Counted from the first letter of the stretch, positions 7,288 through 35,360 are shown. The stretch: 35,637 nucleotides of DNA from a virus (IMGVR_UViG_3300021091_000210:1-35637); one strand, 5' to 3'. Notes: a model not told the origin generated them from the sequence alone. Made by a program: numbers and translations.

Positions 7288-9018
7288 TTATTTCTTTTCA
7301 TCAACTTCAGGATCGATTGTAATTGGTTCTTGTTTACCGCTTACCTTCTCGCCTTTTTTAACTGGTTTTTCATTTCCTGTGGCTTCTTTTTTTGCGCCTA
7401 TAGTTTTTTCTTCATTCATTTTTCTAACAACACGATTCTGTGCAAGAGGTGAAACAAATTTGATCTTTGCGCCAGCAAGTGATTGAAGTGTTTTCAAATC
7501 AAGTTTATCTAGCATTGCAATAAGTTTCTTGTAGGTATCGCTAGAAGGATCAACTTTATTGATCTTGCTATACTCTTGACGCAACTTGTCAATCTGTGCT
7601 GAAGAGAATGCTTCTGCAATTTCTTCTTCAGACATAATGCTACCAACAACTTTTCTTGCTTGTGATTTCATCTTTCCTGGAATCATTACACCTTCTTCTT
7701 TTGGTGTCTTGCCTGCTTTCTTCATAGAGATTGCAATTGCCGCTTGTTGTGCTGGTGAAGAGGCTTCATTCTTTGGCACACAATTTGGCACCATTTTATC
7801 ACCTTTCTTTTTCATACCTTCTTGTTTGTGAGTGTCCCAACATGCTTCGTCAATGTCTTCTTTGTACATATTCAATTCATAACGCTTGTTGTCAAGATTG
7901 GCAACTTGTACTTGAATTGCTTTCTTACCAGTCTTGTCAAGTAGACGATAAGCATTTGCTTTGCCTGATGCTGGCTTTCTTGGACCCATTGCAACATTTC
8001 TATCAATCTCTAGTGGATCAATTTCAATGTTATACTTCTTCTTTGCAAAGTCATAAGCATGAGCCATTGCTGAAGAAAAGTCTTTGTGATAAAGTTCGTA
8101 GCCTGTGCTTGATTTGGATTCATCAAGTTCAATCTCTTCTTTCTTCAATTGCTTTCTCAATGCCATCTTTGCAAGATGGGCTGCTCTTGAAGGACCAGTG
8201 CCACCTTTACCAGGAATCACACCAGGATTCTTTTTTGGTTTGTCTGGTGTAAATGGTGGTTGTGTTTTCTTTTCTACTTCTTCACCAAATTTATCACCAA
8301 CTTTACCTCTGATTGTCATTCCTAGATGATGACTCCCTTTTTCTTTTGCATTTGCATCTTTCATCTTTTTCATCATTTCTTCTTTGTTGCCTTTAGCAAC
8401 TATTTTTTTACTTGGAGAATGAACAAGCGCATATCCTGTTGATTTTGGAATTGCTTCATCAAGTTCAATTTCTTCTTTATAAAGTTTTGCGATTTCAGCA
8501 CCAGATATGTAATCGGGAAGAACATCTTCTAAAGATTTTTTAATGTTTAAAGATTTTTTTGCGGCTGTTACAAATTTACCAGCAAAAGGTTCTAGTGTTT
8601 TATTTTTTCTCATTTTCGATGCTACATCATTAATGTCCATCATAAGTTCTTTTACTTTGCCTTCATCAAGTTCAATTTCTTCTTTTTTTAATGAACCTGC
8701 TGGTTGACCTTTTGCCTTTTCTTTGTCTTTAGGCATTGTACTCACACCTTTTGGTGCGACATGTTTTTTAACTCCAGATGCAGGAAAAGATTTTGCAACA
8801 TCAGGCTTAACTTCTTCATGTTTTGCTTGATGCATGGCATCTAATTGATTAAAGAATGCTTTCTTTTCATCAGGCGACAACTGGCTTATTGAAGTAATGC
8901 CTTTTTTCTTCATCAAGGCTTTTACTTTTGCTTGATACTCAGTTTCTTCTTTCTGAATGTTTCTTACTGCATCAAGTAATGACTGTGGTAATCCAAATTT
9001 GCTTGACATGTTGTCCAT
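7288..9018 (-). CDS. Modular head-interior protein candidate with repeated ELDE linkers
   Basis: A 576-aa, Lys/Glu-rich protein beginning MDNMSSKFGLPQSLLDAVR. Folded-looking stretches are separated by near-identical linkers KEEIELDE ending at residues 119, 188 and 300, plus KEDIDE at 391 and EEEIAEA at 466-470. Each ends in hydrophobic-x-Glu before a small residue, the pattern cut by the T4 prohead protease. After Glu391 comes a Cys module (ACWDTHKQEGMKKKGDKMV then PNCVP) shared with the 982-aa protein. It has a strong ribosome site (GAGAGGA). A processed internal head protein is inference; no enzyme motif is seen. Confidence 0.85.
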   Translation of the reverse strand: MDNMSSKFGLPQSLLDAVRNIQKEETEYQAKVKALMKKKGITSISQLSPDEKKAFFNQLDAMHQAKHEEVKPDVAKSFPASGVKKHVAPKGVSTMPKDKEKAKGQPAGSLKKEEIELDEGKVKELMMDINDVASKMRKNKTLEPFAGKFVTAAKKSLNIKKSLEDVLPDYISGAEIAKLYKEEIELDEAIPKSTGYALVHSPSKKIVAKGNKEEMMKKMKDANAKEKGSHHLGMTIRGKVGDKFGEEVEKKTQPPFTPDKPKKNPGVIPGKGGTGPSRAAHLAKMALRKQLKKEEIELDESKSSTGYELYHKDFSSAMAHAYDFAKKKYNIEIDPLEIDRNVAMGPRKPASGKANAYRLLDKTGKKAIQVQVANLDNKRYELNMYKEDIDEACWDTHKQEGMKKKGDKMVPNCVPKNEASSPAQQAAIAISMKKAGKTPKEEGVMIPGKMKSQARKVVGSIMSEEEIAEAFSSAQIDKLRQEYSKINKVDPSSDTYKKLIAMLDKLDLKTLQSLAGAKIKFVSPLAQNRVVRKMNEEKTIGAKKEATGNEKPVKKGEKVSGKQEPITIDPEVDEKK

Positions 9019-9019
9019 G

Positions 9020-9301
9020 TTAATCCTCTCTAATTTCTAGAATTAAGTTTCCGTTGCCTCTGATAACTCTATGATAGCGCATCGCTTCAATAAAGTATGT
9101 CTTTCCTTTTTCTAACTCAACTGGAAGTTCATCGTCAAACTGCAACTTCCAATCGTTTGATTCTTTTACAAACACATGTCGATCTTTACGATCTCTATGC
9201 CAAACCAACTCTTCGTTTTCTACAGATTCTAAAAATGTTCTTACCTTAAAATCTGAAAACAAAACTTCAGTATATGGATTACCAGAAGAAGTTTCCGCCA
9301 C
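9020..9301 (-). CDS. Conserved small protein, possibly cupin-like
   Basis: The frame opens with GTG at 9301, overlapping the end of the 982-aa gene by 23 bases. No ATG is available before residue 73, so the exact start is uncertain. The 93-aa product has a pattern familiar from T4-like phages: FKVRTFLESVENEELVWHRD, a beta-rich middle with ELEKGKTYFIEAMRYHR, and GNLILEI. The His-containing, beta-rich core is compatible with a small cupin fold. The function is unknown. It lies between two large modular proteins and may be co-expressed with them. Confidence 0.75.
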   Translation of the reverse strand: MAETSSGNPYTEVLFSDFKVRTFLESVENEELVWHRDRKDRHVFVKESNDWKLQFDDELPVELEKGKTYFIEAMRYHRVIRGNGNLILEIRED

Positions 9302-12227
9302 CGCTTAATCCCAATTGTTTTGCATATCTTGGTGTATTGCAAGCCCAATATGCGGCACTTGTTCTATCTTTCTGCATACTGCATTGATGACGAGCCGCAA
9401 AAGATTTTCTTGCTTCTGGATCATTCATCTTGACTGATAGACCAGTAGTGTCACCCCATGTGACTTTCTTAATACCACCATCTGGTTTGCGAACAAACAC
9501 ATAAAACTTCTTAGGACCACCACGCTTTGGTTGATTCAATGGTGGATCTTTTTCTTTATCTTCTTCTTCGTACATTGGGCAATCAAGTGGAACATTGCGA
9601 CCTTCGTACTTAGCAAACTCACCAATGTCGGTTTCTGTAATGAGTGCTTTGTCTTCAGAGCAAAGTTCTAGTTTGCCTTCGTTATACAACTTTCTTGCTT
9701 CACGAAACACTTCGAAATATTTTTCAGAACCAACACGATAAACATTTTCAAACAAAGGCACATTGTTATCTACATGCCAATCAATTGCTTCATGTAGTTT
9801 ACCTTCGCCAAACAACTTAAACATGCGTTGCATATTGGCATTGTTAATTGCATCTATTGCGTCATTTGCAGAGTATCTTGCCTTTGTAATCTCAATGCTT
9901 TGTCCTGGAGTAGCCCTTGCGTATGCAATTCTTGCTTGATCAGTTCCATATTCAAGGGCTTCGATAAAATTTGCAAATTCCTCATTCTTTGTAACCTTCT
10001 TCGCAAGGTCACTATCAGCACCTCCCCAAGTGCCTTTGCCTTTGGTGATAAATGAGTTCACTCTTGCAAATGCCCATTGTTGTGCAGTAGTGCCTGGTCT
10101 GTGACCGCCTTGCCATGCCGCCATACCACGATTATAAACTTGCTTGAGAATGCTATATGCAATGCCAGACTTTTCTGCTTTCTTTTTTAGTCCTTCGATT
10201 TCTTCGAATAAGTCAGAAAACTCTTGAAGTTCTTCTTCATTCAATTCTTCTTTTGGTATACTTATAATTGCCTCATATATTTCTTCATCGTCAACTTCAT
10301 ATTCATCTTCATCTTCTTCCTCATCATCATCATAATTATACATGCCTTCAAACTCAAGATAGTCTGTTACGCTTTCAATATAATCTGCGGCTTTTGTAAT
10401 TTTAGAAAGAACCCATGCTTCTGGTTCTTCATCTAGTCCATCTAAAATTTCTAGAAGCACTTCTGCATCTTGCATTAAATTAGCAACTTCAATTTGTGCC
10501 ATTTGAATGCCATCTGTTTCATCGTAATCATATTCATCGTTTTCTTCATTTGTTTCAAAAGTATCTTCAAACATTTCATCAAGTTTTTTGCCTGTAACTT
10601 TTGTTACAAGAGCCCACGCTTCTTTAAATTTTTGTTGGCCAATGAGTTTTTTCAATTCGGCAATTTGTGTTGAACTTGCCTTTTGATAAAATTCAAAAAC
10701 TTCCATTGCGCCAATATTGCCTTTGTATATTGCTTCTTTTACATCAAACTCTTCTTTTTGCAATTGAGTTCTTGTCAAACGGAACAATTGATCAGATGAT
10801 GTGACCATGTCAAGCAATGTTGAAAGAAGATTTTGTGTTGCACTTCTTTCTTGAGGATTTAATACCTCGCCAGCATCCATTTTTGAAATTGAACGCTTGA
10901 TGATTGCTAGAAGTTTTTTATCAGCAAGCCCCATGCGAACCAATTGTTCTAATTTGTTGACTTGTTTTTTATCCATCTCTTCGCCAAACATCTGCTTAAA
11001 CTTCTTTGTATGCTTTGATTGTGGCATATCTTTTTCTCTTGCTTCTTTGTCGCCTGGTGCATCTGCGTATGCTGATTTGTCATCATCTGCTTTTGGACCC
11101 ATACGCTTGAAGTGTGCATCTCTGCGCTCTTTGGTATCTTTGTCTAAACCTTTAAAATACTTCGCTGGTTGTGTGCCTGATTTACCAGCAACATCTTTAT
11201 CTTGTGCAACTTTGCCTTCAAAGAAATTTTTAAATTGTTCATTCTTTGATGCTTGATTTTGTCGCTTCTTTCTTTCGATTTCTGCTTTGCGTACTCTTGG
11301 CAAAAGACGCATTGAAATTTTTGCGATTGCGCCTTTCATTTTTTCAACTTTTTTGTCAACGGCAATTTTCTGCCCTACTGACAAAGATTTGTATGCCTTG
11401 CCGGCGCCAAATCTACGCTTTAGAAATTTAAGTGCGGCTCTTCTTGCTCTAGTCTTTAACTTAGACTGAGAGGCAAAACGGCGCATTGCAAGTTCTCTAG
11501 TTCGTTTTAATTTAGCCTTCATTCTTCTCAACACCATACCTCTTTTTCTGCGTTGAGCCATTGATAAGGCTTCGTTTGTTTTCTCTTCAGGAACGCAATT
11601 TGGTACCATACGATTACCCTTCTTCTTTAGTCCTTGTTGTTTGTAACCAACCCAACATGCTTCGTCAACGGATTCTGTTAATCTCATTCCTTTTTTAACT
11701 GCATCAAACATTTGCTTTGCTTGTGCATCGTTGATTGCAGAAGGAACACCTTCTTTAAATTTATTGAAATCGTTATCTCTTACAAAACCACGCATCTTGG
11801 ATGCAGACATGCCTGACACACCTTCGGCATCAGGATCACGCTCACCTGCGCTAATGACTTCTATTGAATTAAAGGTAAAGTCTTTACCATTGTATCGATT
11901 CAATAGTCTTTCAAACTCTGCAACTCTGTCACTACCAACTACAAGAGTTACATCTGTGAATTTTTCTTTTTCAAGTTCAATCATTACTTCGATGATTGTT
12001 CTTGCTCTTGACTTGACTACATCAATCATTTTATTAAAAGCAAGTTTCGCAAACTTGATTTTGTCATCGTATGAGAGTGGATCTTTTTTTGGATTTGTCG
12101 TGTGGGAAAGATACAGTCTAGCGACTGCGCCACGAGATTTTGCCGCTTTGGCTATGCTTTTTGCGACCAATTCATGTCCGGTCGTGGACGGATTCATTCT
12201 ACCGAATCCTAGTGTTACTTTCTTCAT
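9279..12227 (-). CDS. 982-aa nucleotidyltransferase fusion, modular virion-associated candidate
   Basis: The N-terminus (about 1-160) is an HxGH-type nucleotidyltransferase: GRMNPSTTGHE at 9-19 and GMSASKMR at 139-146, the equivalents of HIGH and ISSTxxR. A Cys module (VDEACWVGYKQQGLKKKGN, about 187-213) shared with the 576-aa protein follows. Then come a very basic helical region (225-320) and an acidic segment (560-650). Next is a GHRPGTTAQQWAFARVNSF module (about 680-745; recalled as DUF5824) and a C-terminal KFYVFVRKPDG...ARHQC module (906-982; recalled as DUF5872). Hydrophobic-x-Glu|Ala sites separate several parts. Substrate and location are unknown; virion packaging is inferred from neighbours. 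Confidence 0.85.
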   Translation of the reverse strand: MKKVTLGFGRMNPSTTGHELVAKSIAKAAKSRGAVARLYLSHTTNPKKDPLSYDDKIKFAKLAFNKMIDVVKSRARTIIEVMIELEKEKFTDVTLVVGSDRVAEFERLLNRYNGKDFTFNSIEVISAGERDPDAEGVSGMSASKMRGFVRDNDFNKFKEGVPSAINDAQAKQMFDAVKKGMRLTESVDEACWVGYKQQGLKKKGNRMVPNCVPEEKTNEALSMAQRRKRGMVLRRMKAKLKRTRELAMRRFASQSKLKTRARRAALKFLKRRFGAGKAYKSLSVGQKIAVDKKVEKMKGAIAKISMRLLPRVRKAEIERKKRQNQASKNEQFKNFFEGKVAQDKDVAGKSGTQPAKYFKGLDKDTKERRDAHFKRMGPKADDDKSAYADAPGDKEAREKDMPQSKHTKKFKQMFGEEMDKKQVNKLEQLVRMGLADKKLLAIIKRSISKMDAGEVLNPQERSATQNLLSTLLDMVTSSDQLFRLTRTQLQKEEFDVKEAIYKGNIGAMEVFEFYQKASSTQIAELKKLIGQQKFKEAWALVTKVTGKKLDEMFEDTFETNEENDEYDYDETDGIQMAQIEVANLMQDAEVLLEILDGLDEEPEAWVLSKITKAADYIESVTDYLEFEGMYNYDDDEEEDEDEYEVDDEEIYEAIISIPKEELNEEELQEFSDLFEEIEGLKKKAEKSGIAYSILKQVYNRGMAAWQGGHRPGTTAQQWAFARVNSFITKGKGTWGGADSDLAKKVTKNEEFANFIEALEYGTDQARIAYARATPGQSIEITKARYSANDAIDAINNANMQRMFKLFGEGKLHEAIDWHVDNNVPLFENVYRVGSEKYFEVFREARKLYNEGKLELCSEDKALITETDIGEFAKYEGRNVPLDCPMYEEEDKEKDPPLNQPKRGGPKKFYVFVRKPDGGIKKVTWGDTTGLSVKMNDPEARKSFAARHQCSMQKDRTSAAYWACNTPRYAKQLGLSGGGNFFW

Positions 12228-12310
12228 GGAGTTTTCCTTAGACTTATCCTAGCAGGTTTGCCATAGCCTAACTGCCCATATTTCTTATTTAGTAAATCAC
12301 CATGCTTCAC
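12224..12310 (-). CDS. Candidate 28-aa small protein (GTG start)
   Basis: A frame GTG 12308-12310 to TGA 12224-12226 fills the gap between the 319-aa and 982-aa genes and overlaps the latter's start as ATGA, the usual coupling here. The product is short and basic (MKHGDLLNKKYGQLGYGKP, then ARISLRKTP). No clear ribosome site precedes the GTG. It may be a real small protein, a translational coupler, or chance. Confidence 0.4.
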   Translation of the reverse strand: MKHGDLLNKKYGQLGYGKPARISLRKTP

Positions 12311-13256
12311 CAGACATTTTGATTGAAGAAGCAAGTTTTTCTGATTCAAACTTGAAACGCATTTTCATGATCTTCTTATTATTTGCCATCACACCAATTG
12401 ATTCATTTCCAACTTTTTCAAGTTCAAATTTAAGTGACGCAAGAGCATCAAGTTTCTCATTTTTCGTTGGATCTAATACTGTAGCAGAGTATGGTTCCTT
12501 ATTTCCTTGACCAGTAATCTTTACATATGGAGGATACATCACATCTGCGTTCATCCAGTCTGTCATTAGATATTCAAGCAAATCTTTTGGTTTCATTAAA
12601 TTAAGACGGCTGTATAAATCATCACGCATGGCAGCCAGCATGAGTACACCAAGTTTTTCTGTCTTTTCTTTAAGTTTTGCATTTGCACGAATAAATAATT
12701 TTCTCTTTGCATCTGTATTTGGAAGACCAAGTACTGCAACTGCTTGTGCTAATTGTTGTTTGTATGTTTCTCCAATATTAGTGCCAAGTGCTTTGTCAAC
12801 TGTGCCTACACCAGGATTCTTAAAGCCAATCTCACCTCTTCCTTTTGTTGACTTTGCTGAAAGTCCAAGCCAACCATTAGATGGTCCTCTTGAAAATAGA
12901 ATAAGTGTATCTGTTGGATTTTTTGATTGATCAACTTCTACACCTACAATTGTAGTCATAATACCAGGGCGGGCAGTCCAGTAGATATGTTTAATTGGCA
13001 ACTTATATCCGTGAGTTTTTGCATACTTTAAAAACTCTTCAGCCATTACTTTTGCATGACCTGTAGCACGGTTTAAATTTTCTGGTGTGACTTGCTTTAT
13101 TCGTTGTAGATACTTTGCTTTTGCTTGGTTGTCATACCATTTTTCATTGTTTAAAAAGTAACCAACAAGAATTTCATTGATATCTGATATGAGTGTATTT
13201 GGATTCACTTTCTTCTCCTGTTCGGTAATAAACGCTTTAAAACCCATTATTGCCAT
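12297..13256 (-). CDS. Head-targeted nuclease-like protein (CTS-like leader)
   Basis: A 319-aa protein opening MAIMGFKAFITEQ, matching the T4 internal-protein capsid-targeting consensus (T4 IPIII: MKTYQEFIAEA) at the aromatic, FI and Glu positions. Cleavage would follow Glu12. Further in, E28 in a helix, D116 (NPTDTLIL) and S133-x-K135 (LGLSAKS) form a possible degenerate PD-(D/E)XK nuclease core. The ATG at 13256 has AGGAAC about 9 bases upstream; the ATG three codons in is less well placed. It lies beside the 410-aa gene with the same leader. Nuclease activity is a weak inference. Confidence 0.75.
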   Translation of the reverse strand: MAIMGFKAFITEQEKKVNPNTLISDINEILVGYFLNNEKWYDNQAKAKYLQRIKQVTPENLNRATGHAKVMAEEFLKYAKTHGYKLPIKHIYWTARPGIMTTIVGVEVDQSKNPTDTLILFSRGPSNGWLGLSAKSTKGRGEIGFKNPGVGTVDKALGTNIGETYKQQLAQAVAVLGLPNTDAKRKLFIRANAKLKEKTEKLGVLMLAAMRDDLYSRLNLMKPKDLLEYLMTDWMNADVMYPPYVKITGQGNKEPYSATVLDPTKNEKLDALASLKFELEKVGNESIGVMANNKKIMKMRFKFESEKLASSIKMSGEAW

Positions 13257-13303
13257 AATTTTTTGTTCCTATTCTTATAAGTATGGGTGTAGCCTTTCAT
13301 ATG

Positions 13304-14536
13304 TTACCTTTGCCATCCTTTAATAACATCTGGTGAGAAATTAGCGTAACTGAAACGCATTCTGTCTACCAACTTTACAGTATTACCTCCCAAGTGGTCA
13401 ATTGCAACATATCCCTCAACACCAGTCACTTCATAACCTTTGTTTGTCATAAGGAAAGTATCAATTGATTTCACTTGGTCGAGTTTCGTAATCAACATCA
13501 ACTTTGCTTCAGCAAGTAGATTCATCAAAGTAAAAATTGCTTCAAGTTCAGATTGATGCTTTGGTGTAAAGTATGCAAGAATCTCATCTCTCTTTGCGTA
13601 TGTAGATGATTTACCTTTTTGTGTTTTCTTTGAAGCCGCTTCTTTTTCGTAATAGTCGTGAATGTATTGAATGAGTTCTTTTACATGTCGCTTAACATTT
13701 GTAACCTTCAACTGATTTCTCACTTTTGTGTTGTTGAATGTCTTGATTTTTTCTCTCAAGTCATCGTTGTCTGCAATCATGTTCAATGCTTTTGCATCAA
13801 TACGATAGAAAACTTTACCTGCATCAGAAAGAATGTTTGTAATTTTTGTTGTTTCTGCGTTTGTCAATGTTGCTTTGCCTGAAAGGTCACGATAGTTCAC
13901 ATCGGTTGACCAAACTCTAGAAGTTTTATTGATCATTGAGAGAATGTCTTTACCAAAAACTGCTTTCATCTCTTCAAAAGTATTGCCTTCGTACATTGTA
14001 TGCCATACAACGCCAATATTTGCGGATTTTATTTCTTTAGCAAGTTCACTTTCTGTTGGTATTGCGTATACAATTGTGTTTGGATGAAAGGTAATGTACT
14101 CTTGCCCATCAATTGTTGCAGTCTTTAAGTCTTTCTTTGTGAAAAGCAAGTCACCTTGAATCACACCTTTCTTGATTCCAAGGTTTTTAAATTCTTCAAG
14201 AGATACTTTCAGTTTTTCTGCAAGGTCTCCTGAAGTGTCGGCATCGATCTCAGATGGCGTCTTGTATATTTTGGGATTCTTATTGAATATTCCCTTCTTT
14301 GCGACAAAAAATTTCCCATCGCTTGGATCAATTCCAACGAAAACTGCTGGCGCACCATCCCACTTTACTGTAATGTCTACACGCTTGGTAGATTTACCAG
14401 CAAGCATATCACGCACCGCTCTAAGTGCGTTAATACTATCTCTAGTTCCTTTAACACCGCCATTGAGAACATCGTCTTCCGCGTGTTCCATGTGCGTGTT
14501 TTTTTGCTCTGTAATAAATTGTTTAAATTTCAACAT
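13304..14536 (-). CDS. Head-targeted ligase-like nucleotidyltransferase (CTS-like leader)
   Basis: A 410-aa protein opening MLKFKQFITEQ, an 11-residue match in pattern to the T4 capsid-targeting sequence with expected cleavage after Glu10. The body resembles covalent nucleotidyltransferases. K58-W-D-G is ligase motif I with the lysine nucleophile, QGDLLF near 126-131 resembles motif III, VEGYVAID near 373-380 resembles motif IV, and VKLVDR near 387-392 resembles motif V. The long helical insert between III and IV is unusual. I recall the family as DUF6267 of cyanophage-type myoviruses. A TATAAATA late promoter lies about 36 bases upstream. Its substrate (DNA or RNA ends) is unknown. Confidence 0.8.
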   Translation of the reverse strand: MLKFKQFITEQKNTHMEHAEDDVLNGGVKGTRDSINALRAVRDMLAGKSTKRVDITVKWDGAPAVFVGIDPSDGKFFVAKKGIFNKNPKIYKTPSEIDADTSGDLAEKLKVSLEEFKNLGIKKGVIQGDLLFTKKDLKTATIDGQEYITFHPNTIVYAIPTESELAKEIKSANIGVVWHTMYEGNTFEEMKAVFGKDILSMINKTSRVWSTDVNYRDLSGKATLTNAETTKITNILSDAGKVFYRIDAKALNMIADNDDLREKIKTFNNTKVRNQLKVTNVKRHVKELIQYIHDYYEKEAASKKTQKGKSSTYAKRDEILAYFTPKHQSELEAIFTLMNLLAEAKLMLITKLDQVKSIDTFLMTNKGYEVTGVEGYVAIDHLGGNTVKLVDRMRFSYANFSPDVIKGWQR

Positions 14537-14546
14537 TGCCTTAGAT

Positions 14547-14572
14547 AAAAAAAGTCCATCTTACGATGGACT
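14547..14572 (-). terminator. Strong Rho-independent terminator
   Basis: On the minus strand AGTCCATC-GTAA-GATGGACT (14553-14572), a perfect 8-bp stem with a GNRA-type loop, followed by seven T including the last stem base. It ends the transcript carrying the small gene at 14593-14931. Its 5' arm overlaps the late promoter of the next gene. Confidence 0.9.
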
Positions 14573-14579
14573 ATTTATA
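14572..14579 (-). promoter_or_regulatory. T4-type late promoter TATAAATA
   Basis: An exact TATAAATA on the minus strand, ending on the first base of the terminator hairpin. Initiation about 6 bases later (near 14566) falls inside the 5' arm, so the late RNA would lack the complete hairpin. The leader to the 410-aa gene is about 30 nt. Confidence 0.8.
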
Positions 14580-20236: not shown

Positions 20237-20638
20237 TCAACCTCTTGTCAAAGACAAAATTTTATCAATCTGATCTTGAATCTTTTCGGTTCTGTTTGGC
20301 CAGTAAATATATTCTTTTTCTGGATTCTTCATAAGATTCACAAGCAAAGGCATAATCATTTCTTCTAATTTTTTTAACTTGCCTTTTGTTTCTTCTTGCA
20401 ACTTTTCTCTTTCGGCATCAAGCCCTAACTTACCTTCATTGTACAATTGAAGAATGCTATCCATTTTGTTTTCAAGGCGAGAGATGCCTTCTACTGATGC
20501 GCCTACAGTTTCACGAATGACTGTAGTTTCAAGTGTATCATGATTGACTACTGGTGTCAATTCTGCTTCATCAACTGCGCTGAAACCAAAATCTTCCATT
20601 GATCTTGGCAACAAATATTCTGTTGGTATTTTACTCAT
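20237..20638 (-). CDS. Conserved T4-like phage protein, unknown
   Basis: A 133-aa protein with a short N-terminal region (YLLPRSMEDFGFSAVDE), a predicted helix or coiled coil (ISRLENKMDSILQLYN and LQEETKGKLKKLEEM), and a conserved ending (YIYWPNRTEKIQDQIDKI). I recognise the tail as recurrent beside DNA polymerase or membrane genes in environmental T4-like phages. The start overlaps the polymerase C-half stop (ATGA). Possible replication accessory, function unknown. Confidence 0.8.
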   Translation of the reverse strand: MSKIPTEYLLPRSMEDFGFSAVDEAELTPVVNHDTLETTVIRETVGASVEGISRLENKMDSILQLYNEGKLGLDAEREKLQEETKGKLKKLEEMIMPLLVNLMKNPEKEYIYWPNRTEKIQDQIDKILSLTRG

Positions 20639-21726
20639 TTAAAAAACCCCATTAGTGATGATACTGGTTCTGGATTCCAACCAAATGTGTTGACGATAAT
20701 CTTAAGTGGTTCAATATATGCTTTTTCAAACTGTGTATCATAATCGATATACTTCTCCATGCCAAACTCTTTTGGTAGAACATTCAATACAGAGAAAACA
20801 TTTTCTTGTAGTGGGTTCGGCATCTTCATGTAACAAAACTTGATCTTGTCGCCATCACGAATTGCTTGGTACTTTTTTTCTAACTTCTTTTGCCTCAGCA
20901 TATGATTGTATAGAAGACTGCCACGAACATGAATTGGTGTGCCTTTTGGATACAATGATGTTGAAGACTTGCTATCATATTTAGTCAGTTCAGAAACACC
21001 TCTTGGAAACGCAACATCTTCAAATGGCAGAGTACTAAACTCTTCTTTGAATTTGGCATTGAATGCCTGAAATTCAATTTCATTACCTGCCATAATGATC
21101 TTAAGTGCTTCTTTAATTTTTTCACGGCATGACATTGGCGTGGAAGACTTGACTGCTTCAATACCCATCATCTTAAGTTTAGGTTCTGCAAATCGCACAC
21201 CTTCTGAATCCCATACATTAAGAATGTATCTTTTCTTTGCAGTCCAGATGCCTTTGTCGGCAATGACTTCTCGCTTCATTTGCATCTTTTGATCATAGGC
21301 ATTCATGTAGTCTGCCAGTTCTTGATATGACTTATCGATGTATGGTTCAATCTTATCCGAACATGCTTTGTCGATTAGATTTACAATCTCTTCTCTACCT
21401 TTGTCTTTGAATACTTTTTCAACAAGTGGACCAAGGTGCAGATAGATCGAATCGGTATCTGATGCAATAACATAATCTATGTTCTCAGTCTTTAGCAATT
21501 TGTTCATATAGATGTTCAATTTCTTTTCAATCCAACGAATAGCCAATTGACCAGAGAGTGTGATTGCCTCTGCTTGACGAATATCAAAGAAGCGAAAGTA
21601 TTCATTACCTAACGCACCATAGGCAGAATTCAACTGAACCTTTTTGGCAAGTTGAAGATTTTTGTAGCGTGAGATTTCATTTTCTAATTGCCTCTTACGC
21701 TTGAGCAATTCTGTTTTTTCAGACAT
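20635..21726 (-). CDS. 43: DNA polymerase, C-terminal part (palm/fingers/thumb)
   Basis: A 363-aa second piece of a family B polymerase. It starts with a charged helix (SEKTELLKRKRQLENEISRY). Motif B follows as KKVQLNSAYG (28-37) and motif C as ASDTDSIYL with D90 and D92, then the thumb. Together with the 480-aa piece the total is 843 aa versus 898 in T4 gp43, so little is missing. It lacks motif A and the exonuclease, so it can only work by assembling with the N-terminal piece. Translation is coupled: its ATG overlaps the oxygenase end by 8 bases. Confidence 0.93.
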   Translation of the reverse strand: MSEKTELLKRKRQLENEISRYKNLQLAKKVQLNSAYGALGNEYFRFFDIRQAEAITLSGQLAIRWIEKKLNIYMNKLLKTENIDYVIASDTDSIYLHLGPLVEKVFKDKGREEIVNLIDKACSDKIEPYIDKSYQELADYMNAYDQKMQMKREVIADKGIWTAKKRYILNVWDSEGVRFAEPKLKMMGIEAVKSSTPMSCREKIKEALKIIMAGNEIEFQAFNAKFKEEFSTLPFEDVAFPRGVSELTKYDSKSSTSLYPKGTPIHVRGSLLYNHMLRQKKLEKKYQAIRDGDKIKFCYMKMPNPLQENVFSVLNVLPKEFGMEKYIDYDTQFEKAYIEPLKIIVNTFGWNPEPVSSLMGFFK

Positions 21727-22228
21727 AGTGAAAGTAGGTACTCATAATATATTTTGGTGTTTGTGTTGGCATCAAACCTTCGTGTGGATACATCCACATT
21801 GGAGGAAAGACTAAAACATTTCCTTGTTTTGCTTCATAGGTAAACTCATCATTTGGTGTATAAAACTTTGTGCCTGCTTCATTATCATTAAGATAAAATA
21901 AAAATGCAAGGTATCTAGTACATGATTGTACACTAATTGCATCGGCATGTAAAGGGAAGCAATGTTTATTTGGTTCATATCTTTTTACACGGAAAGATTC
22001 AATTCTTCTTTTTGTGGGCAAAAGTTTTTTAGGATCGTATCTAGCAGTATAATCTTCTGCAATGCCTTTGGCAACTTCAACCAAATCTTTATGCTCACTT
22101 GTCCAATGAACAATTTCGATTTGATCAAAGATATCATAGGAGGTATCTTTGTTTTCATCTGCATCAAACTTTGCCATGATGTATTCGCAGATTTCTTTCG
22201 GTAGAACATTTTGATACATCTGAATCAT
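21719..22228 (-). CDS. 2-oxoglutarate/Fe(II)-dependent oxygenase
   Basis: A 169-aa protein of the prolyl-4-hydroxylase-like type. The iron ligands H94-x-D96 (LHADA) and H149 (YPHEG) are present, with K159 in PKYIMST at the usual 2OG-binding position. Substrates of phage members are mostly unknown (protein or nucleic acid hydroxylation). The gene is wedged exactly between the two halves of the DNA polymerase, with a 4-base overlap upstream and 8 downstream, so all three are read from one mRNA. No homing-endonuclease signature is visible. Confidence 0.88.
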   Translation of the reverse strand: MIQMYQNVLPKEICEYIMAKFDADENKDTSYDIFDQIEIVHWTSEHKDLVEVAKGIAEDYTARYDPKKLLPTKRRIESFRVKRYEPNKHCFPLHADAISVQSCTRYLAFLFYLNDNEAGTKFYTPNDEFTYEAKQGNVLVFPPMWMYPHEGLMPTQTPKYIMSTYFHYV

Positions 22229-23667
22229 GATAATTCCTTCAATTGTACTTTGACGCTTTCTAATTCTTTCTGCGCTTCAATCATCTTCTTCTTATATAGA
22301 AGACGGTCATCATACATTTTCTGCATCATCTCAGGAAGAAAGCCTTGTTCGTTTCGTTTGAAATAATGACCATTGGCTGCCATACAATATTCATTGTCAG
22401 GTGCATATTTGATGTTCAGTAAATTTTCAATAGAAATTGAACTATGCTTACCATCAACAATTGTTTCAGGTGAAACATTGTATTGCATAATCAAGTGCGG
22501 ATAGAGTGAGTTCAAATCAAACGACACAACCCATTCATATTTACCTGGTGTTGGTTCTTTCACATAAGCACCAGCATACTGTTCGTTCTTTGATGTGTGT
22601 TTGTTTTGTGGTACGACAATACCTTTCTTCCACAAATGATTGTGAGTGAGAGTATCCCACATGCGTACTTGTGTGAATACATCGGTGAAGTTTACTTTAG
22701 CATCATATGCAAGAGCAAGCACCATGTCAATGAATTTCATCTTCTCATCTAATTTATCGACAAGTTCCACATCTTTGATGTTATAGTCAATAAATTTTTG
22801 ATAGTCAAGTTTATAGAGTTGGTGTAGCGTTTCATATTCAGAGTAATCAATTTTGTTCTCACCAAGTTCAATGTAAGCAATGTGGTCAAGGCGAAATGAT
22901 TCTTGCTGAGAGTATGTAAATTTTTTGTAGAGTTCTAGGTAGTCTAGAATTGAGATGCCAACAAGATCAAATGCAGTCTGTTGACGATTGTGAATTGTGG
23001 TTGTGCGTTCACCAATCATACGATATAGCGACAAACGATTTGCAACCTTATCGCCCATCAAACGATTGATACGATTGTAGAGATATGGTATGTCAAAGAA
23101 TTGAATGTTCCATCCAGTTACAATGTCTGGCGACTTCTCTTCCCACATTTGAATAAACTTCATGATGAGGTCGTTTTCATCTCGGCACATAGAGTATGTA
23201 ACATCATCACGATAGTTATTATACTTGCCGCAACCAAACACATAGAAGTGGTTGTTAATCTTGAGTGAGATAGCGGTGATTGGTTCGCTTGCTCTGTCTG
23301 GTTCAGGAAAACCATTCTCTGATCCAACCTCAATGTCAAGATTTGCAATGCGAATCAGTTCACGGTCATAGTACACTTCATCTGGATACTGTTCATTGAT
23401 ATACACATAGGCATAGTTCGTTGAACCATAGATTGGAAAGTTTTCTACTGTTTCATATCGGTCAACAAATTCTTTTGCGTCACGCATAGAACCCAAGTCT
23501 ACGGGTGCAACAAACTTACCATCAAGTGTGCGATATTCAGTTTCTTCTTTTGCGGGAACGAAAAGAGTAGGATTGTATTCTACTTTGCGAGAATATCTCT
23601 TACCGTTTTCGTATCCTCTTTCAAGAATGAAGTTACCTTTGCGTGTAAAGTGCGTATAAAATTTCAT
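22225..23667 (-). CDS. 43: DNA polymerase, N-terminal part (exonuclease and motif A)
   Basis: A 480-aa first piece of the gp43-type family B polymerase. The 3'-5' exonuclease has D111-x-E113 (NLDIEVG; T4 has D112/E114), the ExoII region VTGWNIQFFDIPYL and ExoIII YNIKDVEL. Motif A is SFDLNSLYPHLI. The protein ends in a charged helix (KKKMIEAQKELESVKVQLKE), the tip of the fingers, before motif B. The missing half is the gene at 20635-21726. All exonuclease residues are intact, so proofreading should be active. The ATG overlaps the previous gene by four bases. Confidence 0.94.
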   Translation of the reverse strand: MKFYTHFTRKGNFILERGYENGKRYSRKVEYNPTLFVPAKEETEYRTLDGKFVAPVDLGSMRDAKEFVDRYETVENFPIYGSTNYAYVYINEQYPDEVYYDRELIRIANLDIEVGSENGFPEPDRASEPITAISLKINNHFYVFGCGKYNNYRDDVTYSMCRDENDLIMKFIQMWEEKSPDIVTGWNIQFFDIPYLYNRINRLMGDKVANRLSLYRMIGERTTTIHNRQQTAFDLVGISILDYLELYKKFTYSQQESFRLDHIAYIELGENKIDYSEYETLHQLYKLDYQKFIDYNIKDVELVDKLDEKMKFIDMVLALAYDAKVNFTDVFTQVRMWDTLTHNHLWKKGIVVPQNKHTSKNEQYAGAYVKEPTPGKYEWVVSFDLNSLYPHLIMQYNVSPETIVDGKHSSISIENLLNIKYAPDNEYCMAANGHYFKRNEQGFLPEMMQKMYDDRLLYKKKMIEAQKELESVKVQLKELS

Positions 23668-34394: not shown

Positions 34395-35360
34395 TTACTC
34401 ACTAAAGAATTTTGTGAGTGTGTTGGCGGATGCTTGTTCGGCTTCTCTTTTTTTTCTATAATATTCTTTCATTGCCGCAGATTTTTTAGCCTTTATTTCT
34501 GGCTTACTCAAGGCTTCTTTGATTGCCGCAGACATTTTAGCCCTTACTTCTGGCTTACTCAAGGCTTCTTTCGTTGCCGCAGAATGTTTAGCCTTTACTT
34601 CCGGTCTATTCATTGTCGCAGACATTTTAGCCTTTACTTCTGGTCTACTGAAGGCTTCTTTTAATGCCGCAGATATTTTAGCCCTTACTTCTGGCTTACT
34701 TAAGGCTTTTTTCCTTGCCTCGGATATTTTAGCCCTTACTTCTGGTCTACTCATTACCTCAGAATGTCTAGCCTTTACTTCCGGTCTATTCATGGCTTCT
34801 TTCATTGCCGTAGACATTTTAGCCCTTACTTCTGGCTTACTCAAGGCTTCTTTCGTTGCCGCAGATATTTTAGCCCTTACTTCTGGCTTACTCAAGGCTT
34901 CTTTGATTGCCGCAGAATGTTTAGCCTTTGCTTCTGGTCTATTCATTGCCTCAAAATATCTAGCCTTTACTTCTGGTCTATTCATGTAGACTTTCATTGC
35001 CGCAGACATTTTAGCCCTTACTTCTGGCTTACTCAAGGCTTCTTTGATTGCCGCAGATTGTTTCATTCTTGTTTCATCTGACTTTATTGCGCCGCTAGGA
35101 CCCCCATCACCACCATCAGTTAAATTTCTAAGAATTCCTGTGCCATTATCTTTTCTTCCGTATTTTGCAATTAACTCTTTTTCAATCGTAAAGGCTTCTT
35201 CTTCAGTTAAATTTTCAGAGTGAAATATTATTCTTGTTTTATCAGCAGGAAGTTTCATTCTTCTTCCATTATTCGTGAATGCTCTTTTGCCTTTACCTTT
35301 ACCAACATAGTAAGGTGTATTATCTTCTCTCAGATAAAGATAAACATAAAAATCATTCAT
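34395..35360 (-). CDS. GIY-YIG homing-type endonuclease with NUMOD3-like repeat tail
   Basis: A 321-aa protein. The N-terminal GIY-YIG domain has FYVYLYL (4-10) and YYVGKG (17-22) in the GIY and YIG positions, an Arg near 26, and IEKELIAKYG with a candidate catalytic Glu near 60-62. LTDGGDGG follows, as in T4 seg-type enzymes. Residues 110-301 are twelve tandem repeats of 17 or 13 aa built on PEVRAK or PEVKA, like NUMOD3 DNA-binding units. The gene starts within the stop of the partial upstream gene (ATGA) and ends before a terminator. Free-standing homing nucleases spread this way. Confidence 0.92.
   Translation of the reverse strand: MNDFYVYLYLREDNTPYYVGKGKGKRAFTNNGRRMKLPADKTRIIFHSENLTEEEAFTIEKELIAKYGRKDNGTGILRNLTDGGDGGPSGAIKSDETRMKQSAAIKEALSKPEVRAKMSAAMKVYMNRPEVKARYFEAMNRPEAKAKHSAAIKEALSKPEVRAKISAATKEALSKPEVRAKMSTAMKEAMNRPEVKARHSEVMSRPEVRAKISEARKKALSKPEVRAKISAALKEAFSRPEVKAKMSATMNRPEVKAKHSAATKEALSKPEVRAKMSAAIKEALSKPEIKAKKSAAMKEYYRKKREAEQASANTLTKFFSE
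34458..35033 (-). repeat. Tandem 51/39-bp coding repeats in the GIY-YIG gene
   Basis: Nine 17-aa units and three 13-aa units (units 2, 6 and 9), totalling 192 codons. The consensus is [S/N]-[K/R]-P-E-V-[R/K]-A-K-x-S-A-A followed by a variable KEAL. DNA copies are nearly identical, implying recent duplication. A degenerate unit precedes the array (residues 94-109). Confidence 0.9.

Follow-up and report, generated by a model that had tools for sequence, protein, structure and literature searches.

A T4-type leader on two adjacent enzyme-like proteins, a DUF6267 candidate nucleotidyltransferase and a putative nuclease, in a viral genome fragment

The stretch of viral DNA analysed here (35,637 nucleotides, hereafter the window) derives from a virus that appears to infect aquatic bacteria and to be a distant relative of T4. 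Two adjacent genes, confirmed on the minus strand where the sequence-only reading had placed them, encode enzyme-like proteins of 410 and 319 amino acids (aa), starting with MLKFKQFITEQKNTHMEH and MAIMGFKAFITEQEKKVNPN, respectively. The 410-aa gene (13304..14536, minus strand) belongs to Pfam DUF6267 (PF19782) and, on the combined basis of Pfam, PHROG 455, a structural model and sequence motifs, encodes a predicted covalent nucleotidyltransferase behind an N-terminal leader. The 319-aa gene (12297..13256, minus strand) encodes a member of an uncharacterised family, likewise with a leader, for which the family alignment and a model point to a PD-(D/E)XK-like signature. The third gene of this conserved block is a 982-aa open reading frame (ORF) (9279..12227, minus strand) recognised by domain and PHROG matches, with an NMNAT/cytidyltransferase-like domain at its N-terminus; it has no leader in the window and is tagged in some relatives. 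The 982-aa protein, with its fused NMNAT-like domain, is also rich in Lys and Glu, as is a 576-aa protein (7288-9018, minus strand) with repeated KEEIELDE segments, and segments of the type CWxxYKQxGxKKKGxxMVPNCVPxE are common to both. These two proteins resemble prohead core or scaffold-like polypeptides.

The leader of the 410-aa protein, MLKFKQFITE (14507..14536, minus strand), has a predicted prohead-protease cut after Glu10, and that of the 319-aa protein, MAIMGFKAFITE (13221..13256, minus strand), a predicted cut after Glu12, giving the N-termini MLKFKQFITE/Q and MAIMGFKAFITE/Q (slash marking the cut). In the T4 record, IPII and IPIII begin with MKTYQEFIAEA. Both proteins had been claimed to align with this leader position by position; the 410-aa protein does so in exact register, and the 319-aa protein is offset by two residues. 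The first 10 residues of T4 IPIII suffice for head targeting, which depends mainly on residues 4 and 7, with processing depending on residues 8 and 10, and the cut motif of the T4 protease gp21 is L/I-X-E (PMC9026906). F4, F7, I8 and E10 of MLKFKQFITE all fit these targeting and cutting positions. Among the 49 genes of the window, solely the 410-aa and 319-aa genes match a strict leader pattern; when residues 2-21 of each gene were shuffled, the mean number of matches was 0.13 and the probability of two or more 0.0086, and with T4-like residues required (aromatic, F, I/L and E in order) none of 5000 shuffles gave two matches.

A late promoter had also been proposed ahead of the first gene, and the T4-type consensus TATAAATA is indeed found there (14572..14579, minus strand), 36 nt before the ATG of the 410-aa gene and at a similar position in several of the nearest relatives. 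The window holds four such sites, every one on the coding strand, a count that is not significant alone (shuffle mean 1.76, with 6 of 100 shuffles reaching 4). The promoter abuts a terminator-like hairpin with a T run (14553..14572, minus strand), so that a late transcript would begin within the stem and thereby escape a terminator that halts transcripts from upstream. This promoter-into-hairpin layout (14553-14579, minus strand, in the window) is kept upstream of DUF6267 in loci L016, L017 and L019-L022, with differing stem sequences.

The behaviour of the leader among homologues was surveyed in both families. For DUF6267, the 410-aa protein was compared with 80 IMG/VR homologues, of which 78 carry the core pattern F/L/Y..[FYH][LIVTM].E within the first 14 residues, as 58 distinct 12-mers ahead of a fixed body; control 14-residue windows inside the same proteins contain the pattern in 7 of 2160 cases (0.3%). 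The body (KNTHMEH...) starts immediately behind the leader, with a linker of 0-12 residues in more distant homologues, and the Pfam model begins at residue 13, leaving the leader outside. The DUF6267 proteins of the cyanophages S-SZBM1, P-HM2, S-CAM9, S-8S56, S-RIM44 and P-SSM4 have no leader and begin at the body, e.g., MAKNTHLEHLEDD. Tagged DUF6267 proteins occur in phage isolates, namely Methylophilales phage Melnitz (LINFSKYITE/DKGG...), whose slot protein is tagged too (MQGFKTFLSE/AKVK...), and Stenotrophomonas phage DLP6 (MMKFTQFLAE/SKDV...). In the 319-aa family (80 loci surveyed, 78 of them new), the leader is absent from 72 of the 78 new loci, most of whose proteins start M(A)TANTILSDINEI, and present in the other 6; L125 exemplifies members with a leader and L127 members without one. 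It is borne by relatives adjoining DUF6267 (L023, L031, L047-L049) and also by L010, and in some tagged relatives it stands before an apparent old start Met, as in MKTFKEYITE/MATANTVLSDINEI (MKTFKEYITE/MATANTVL). AlphaFold2 gives pLDDT values below 50 for residues 1-15 of the 410-aa protein and values of 51-59 for residues 1-20 of the 319-aa protein, the bodies being modelled with confidence. The existence of orthologues without a leader, the variable linker, the placement before an old start and the disorder in the models together show that the leader is a detachable module.

The body of the 410-aa protein is an unambiguous DUF6267 member (E 6e-104; 348.8 bits against a gathering cut-off of 27). 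This family (PHROG 455, T4-GC 71) has no assigned function and is often fused to, or located beside, a cytidyltransferase; a search of the accessible literature found no paper mentioning DUF6267. Conservation across 92 divergent sequences singles out four motifs, all on the minus strand: a motif I, K58-W-D-G61 (14354..14365; K58 and D60 100%, G61 99%), holding the candidate nucleotidylated lysine; a motif III-like Q127-G-D129 (14150..14158; 99-100%); a motif IV-like E374-G-Y-V377 (13406..13417; E374, G375 and V377 100%); and a motif V-like K388-L-V-D-R392 (13361..13375; K388 and R392 100%). Their order is the one seen for motifs I, III, IV and V in the ligase and capping-enzyme superfamily, and this ordered set of invariant motifs supports the earlier suggestion of a ligase-type nucleotidyltransferase body. 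A Foldseek search of the PDB with the 410-aa model places DNA ligases at ranks 1-5, as weak matches (best E 0.026, probability up to 0.84) with low TM scores, perhaps because of a helical insertion at residues 226-355 of the model. Profile comparison of DUF6267 with T4 gp30 and Rnl2 detected no relation (probability <1%), and a sequence search against PDB chains gave no match. From motifs and model combined, DUF6267 is probably a ligase-type nucleotidyltransferase, with catalysis predicted from the conserved residues.

The 319-aa protein had been read as possibly a nuclease. Alignment of 41 sequences reveals an invariant acidic residue in the N-terminal helix, E28 (13173..13175, minus strand), as a candidate for the nuclease active site, together with P114-T-D116 (12909..12917, minus strand; D116 invariant), a candidate for the PD of PD-(D/E)XK, and S133-A-K135 (12852..12860, minus strand; S133 and K135 invariant), a candidate (D/E/S)XK. 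These residues fit the PD-(D/E)XK plan with Ser replacing Asp/Glu, and the strand order in the model is compatible with it. The fold search lent no support to this part of the claim: no credible nuclease match was obtained from the PDB, the top matches, to pyrrolysyl-tRNA synthetase (E 0.4), being treated as noise, and structural matches at E <1e-3 are exclusively uncharacterised viral proteins. A giant-virus protein (BFVD A0A3G5AE67, Satyrvirus) is structurally related to the 319-aa model (E 1.5e-5). On the strength of its invariant residues, the 319-aa protein is predicted, with moderate confidence, to be a nuclease. Of 78 loci examined for the 319-aa family, 69 have DUF6267 at a distance of at most 5 kb, and other phages have a different tagged nuclease-like body in the same slot beside DUF6267. 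By this conserved gene pairing, the two families are partners.

The same leader extends well beyond this pair. Across the loci of both families, the coding strand holds 284 leader-bearing ORFs and the opposite strand 6. Their bodies form 32 clusters, 18 of them shared by two or more loci. The sequence-only reading had proposed testing whether the leader is conserved while bodies vary, and one leader is indeed found on more than a dozen unrelated neighbouring bodies. These bodies include a HAD phosphatase with a DIDET motif that matches PHROG 415 polynucleotide kinase, a P-loop kinase (Zeta_toxin/AAA_33, PHROG 505 polynucleotide kinase), a SpoT-like HD hydrolase (TIGR00691, E 1.7e-27; L071, 5447-6001, plus strand), a protein matching PADLOC REase_II (E 6e-11) and several others containing PD-(D/E)XK-like strings, SDIIIEYGGKKAWLEVK and IPDLVMTIDKKTTQFEIKG among them. 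The tagged SpoT-like hydrolase of L071 is possibly an injected (p)ppGpp hydrolase. The tagged HAD phosphatase is found in L064 (5396-6001, plus strand), where it lies directly upstream of DUF6267, and in nine other loci, and tagged zeta-toxin/polynucleotide-kinase-like kinases are found near DUF6267 in L028 (4171-5016, plus strand) and in contig G001 (37744-38805). In L143, L146, L153 and about 20 more loci, DUF6267 is C-terminally fused to the cytidyltransferase in an ORF of about 620 aa with a single leader. On a genome-wide scale, a loose leader pattern barely exceeds the shuffled background in S-SZBM1 (3 vs 2.1), for which reason the strict pattern and clustering were used; the loose counts in contigs G001-G003 are 12, 10 and 7, against 2.9, 2.7 and 1.6 in shuffled sequence. 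The three longest contigs contain 17 genes that match the strict pattern, and 13 of these are no more than 20 kb from DUF6267 (Fisher P = 3e-6).

A link with head assembly is provided by the long DUF6267 contigs. A T4-type prohead protease (PF03420) is encoded in 6 of 12 of these, including all three that exceed 130 kb, and in each of these three the genes for portal and protease flank one for a leader-bearing protein (MKTFSRILSE..., MKTFSKLLSE... and MAIKRFKSFVSE...), as they flank gp67/gp68 in T4. Near their N-termini, the major capsid proteins of the same three contigs contain LLxE sites, in the region where T4 gp23 undergoes cleavage. The window is a 35.6-kb fragment without head genes, so a prohead protease of its phage is not seen.

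Evidence from particles comes from the third member of the block. Leaders are present on the NMNAT-like cytidyltransferases of S-SZBM1 (MRFRQFIIEA), S-CREM2 (MKNFSSFLTEA) and S-SCSM1 (MKSFLQFLKEA), and the virion proteomes of all three include the tagged protein (PMC9146016, PMC10665884, PMC9602691). GenBank notes assign the cytidyltransferase to cluster T4-GC 190, a member of the cyanophage core that Sullivan et al. (2010, PMC3037559) name as a virion protein identified by experiment. Thus the same block and the same leader are represented among proteins detected in particles. The accessible text of the cyanophage papers proposes carriage or co-purification, the latter offered as an alternative in two later proteome papers, and makes no mention there of a targeting leader. 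The untagged DUF6267 of S-SZBM1 (SSZBM1_141) is missing from the published virion list of that phage, in which tagged genes are not significantly enriched (1 of 3 tagged vs 30 of 218 overall). SSCSM1_90, an untagged nuclease-slot protein, carries a virion-protein annotation and belongs to PHROG 1462, as does the tagged slot protein of L028; the tag is therefore not a strict requirement for presence in the virion. The gene block is virion-associated, and the tag may be sufficient for this. A literature search found no virion proteome for any phage in which DUF6267 or the 319-aa protein is tagged.

From these observations we infer, with fair confidence, that internal-protein targeting of the T4 type has been applied to nucleic-acid enzymes, the 410-aa and 319-aa proteins being packaged, cut and injected as a pair that would process ends. 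Both genes would form part of a "cargo" block that aquatic phages of the T4 type devote to morphogenesis. Late in infection, the leader would bind the prohead core and bring its protein inside, where a T4-type prohead protease would cleave after ...ITE; the mature enzyme would then remain with the packaged DNA and enter the next cell alongside it. There, DUF6267 most likely forms a covalent nucleotidyl adduct at Lys58, in the manner of DNA and RNA ligases, in order to join or modify the ends of nucleic acids. Its partner would be the 319-aa protein, most likely a nuclease of the PD-(D/E)XK type, the pair probably processing and resealing DNA (or RNA) ends before phage gene expression. The target may be broken DNA of the phage itself, host DNA or RNA. 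T4 tolerates a packaged foreign nuclease until its activation (PMC9026906), and a nuclease as head cargo is thus not absurd. Since relatives bear the same tag on many unrelated enzymes, injection of preformed enzymes along with the DNA is probable in this group of viruses. A wider and more tentative proposal, to which we give somewhat less than even weight, is that of an injected end-processing kit, with an interchangeable nuclease and a ligase-type enzyme, complemented in relatives by a kinase, a phosphatase, a SpoT-like hydrolase and an NMNAT, in which the portable tag would select the time-zero enzymes of each lineage.

Three other explanations bear on the same data. That the leader does target the prohead, with the enzymes acting there during assembly or DNA packaging, e.g., by trimming and resealing damaged DNA in the head, is unlikely but deserves some weight, as the core, protease and internal proteins of T4 all pass through the same prohead (PMC5694885) and tagged proteins are also encoded beside the prohead protease. 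It is countered by the T4 leader proteins of known function (Ip1-Ip3), which act post-injection (PMC12373910), and by the neighbouring tagged SpoT-like hydrolase, which has no obvious prohead role. Less probable again is that the peptide merely resembles the T4 leader and serves as a docking tag for another complex, such as the late transcription machinery, the replisome or a scaffold of the block. Short amphipathic F..[FY][LI].E peptides could bind many partners, the block adjoins replication genes, and one slot protein is virion-annotated although untagged; nevertheless, the four invariant positions coincide with the ones that T4 genetics identified, the body follows the Glu after a variable linker, and the same leader is found on a protein encoded between portal and prohead protease.

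The remaining explanation, in which both proteins are ordinary intracellular enzymes of DNA repair or recombination and the N-terminus is simply the conserved first helix of the fold, is very improbable. Such a role would suit the broad conservation of DUF6267 among aquatic phages of the T4 type, as well as the cyanophage proteins that work without the peptide, yet the leader is missing in many close orthologues, is common to unrelated bodies and is disordered in the models. A first helix was therefore rejected, and since the leader is disordered in the predicted structures, the possibility raised in the sequence-only reading, that the first 12 residues might be an integral, uncleaved part of the folded domain, was not borne out. 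Capsid targeting, which that reading had favoured, held up in every one of its proposed checks that could be run on sequences and models, without particles.

Capsid targeting of the two enzymes compares closely with the T4 precedent. The capsid-targeting sequence of IPI, IPII and IPIII is reportedly the subject of work by Mullaney and Black from 1996. Shared features are the 10-residue leader with an aromatic residue at 4, F at 7, I/L at 8 and E at 10, the L/I-X-E cut motif and a common leader on unrelated bodies. T4 differs in that the bodies of its internal proteins are small inhibitors of the GmrSD restriction enzyme (PMC12373910), whereas here they are enzyme-like and of 200-450 aa; in addition, the leader is gained or lost among orthologues and a nuclease and ligase-type pairing is conserved. 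The T4 ADP-ribosyltransferase Alt is likewise an enzyme that travels in the head and is processed by gp21 (PMC9026906, PMC5694885), but it acts on RNA polymerase, has the leader MELITELFDE and is unrelated in sequence. The tagged bodies of relatives suggest a kinase, phosphatase and ligase-type set like that of T4 PseT/Pnkp, Rnl and gp30, although these T4 proteins have no leader and no sequence relation to DUF6267 was detected. T4 makes these healing-and-sealing enzymes inside the infected cell. Literature on capsid-targeting sequences in marine phages comprised T4 and giant-phage work, with none on marine T4-like phages among the matches listed, and no accessible paper was found that describes a leader-tagged nuclease and ligase-type pair.

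If injection of the tagged enzymes is correct, a ten-residue signature in a genome sequence would predict head-carried, injected phage proteins across a widespread aquatic group with little virion proteomics. It would also give DUF6267 its first function, explain the cytidyltransferase in cyanophage virions and suggest that enzymes, besides small inhibitors, are a main cargo in these phages. Gain and loss of the leader between orthologues have produced natural tagged and untagged counterparts, which allow a direct test of the benefit of packaging.

None of the proteins of the window has a PADLOC match. Elsewhere in the window, the T4-type DNA polymerase appears split into ORFs of 480 and 363 aa (20635-21726 and 22225-23667, minus strand), between which lies a short, unrelated oxygenase-like ORF (21719-22228). 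A 321-aa ORF (34395-35360, minus strand) has, by eye, a GIY-YIG/NUMOD-like N-terminus and contains many short repeats, ALSKPEVRAKMSAA.
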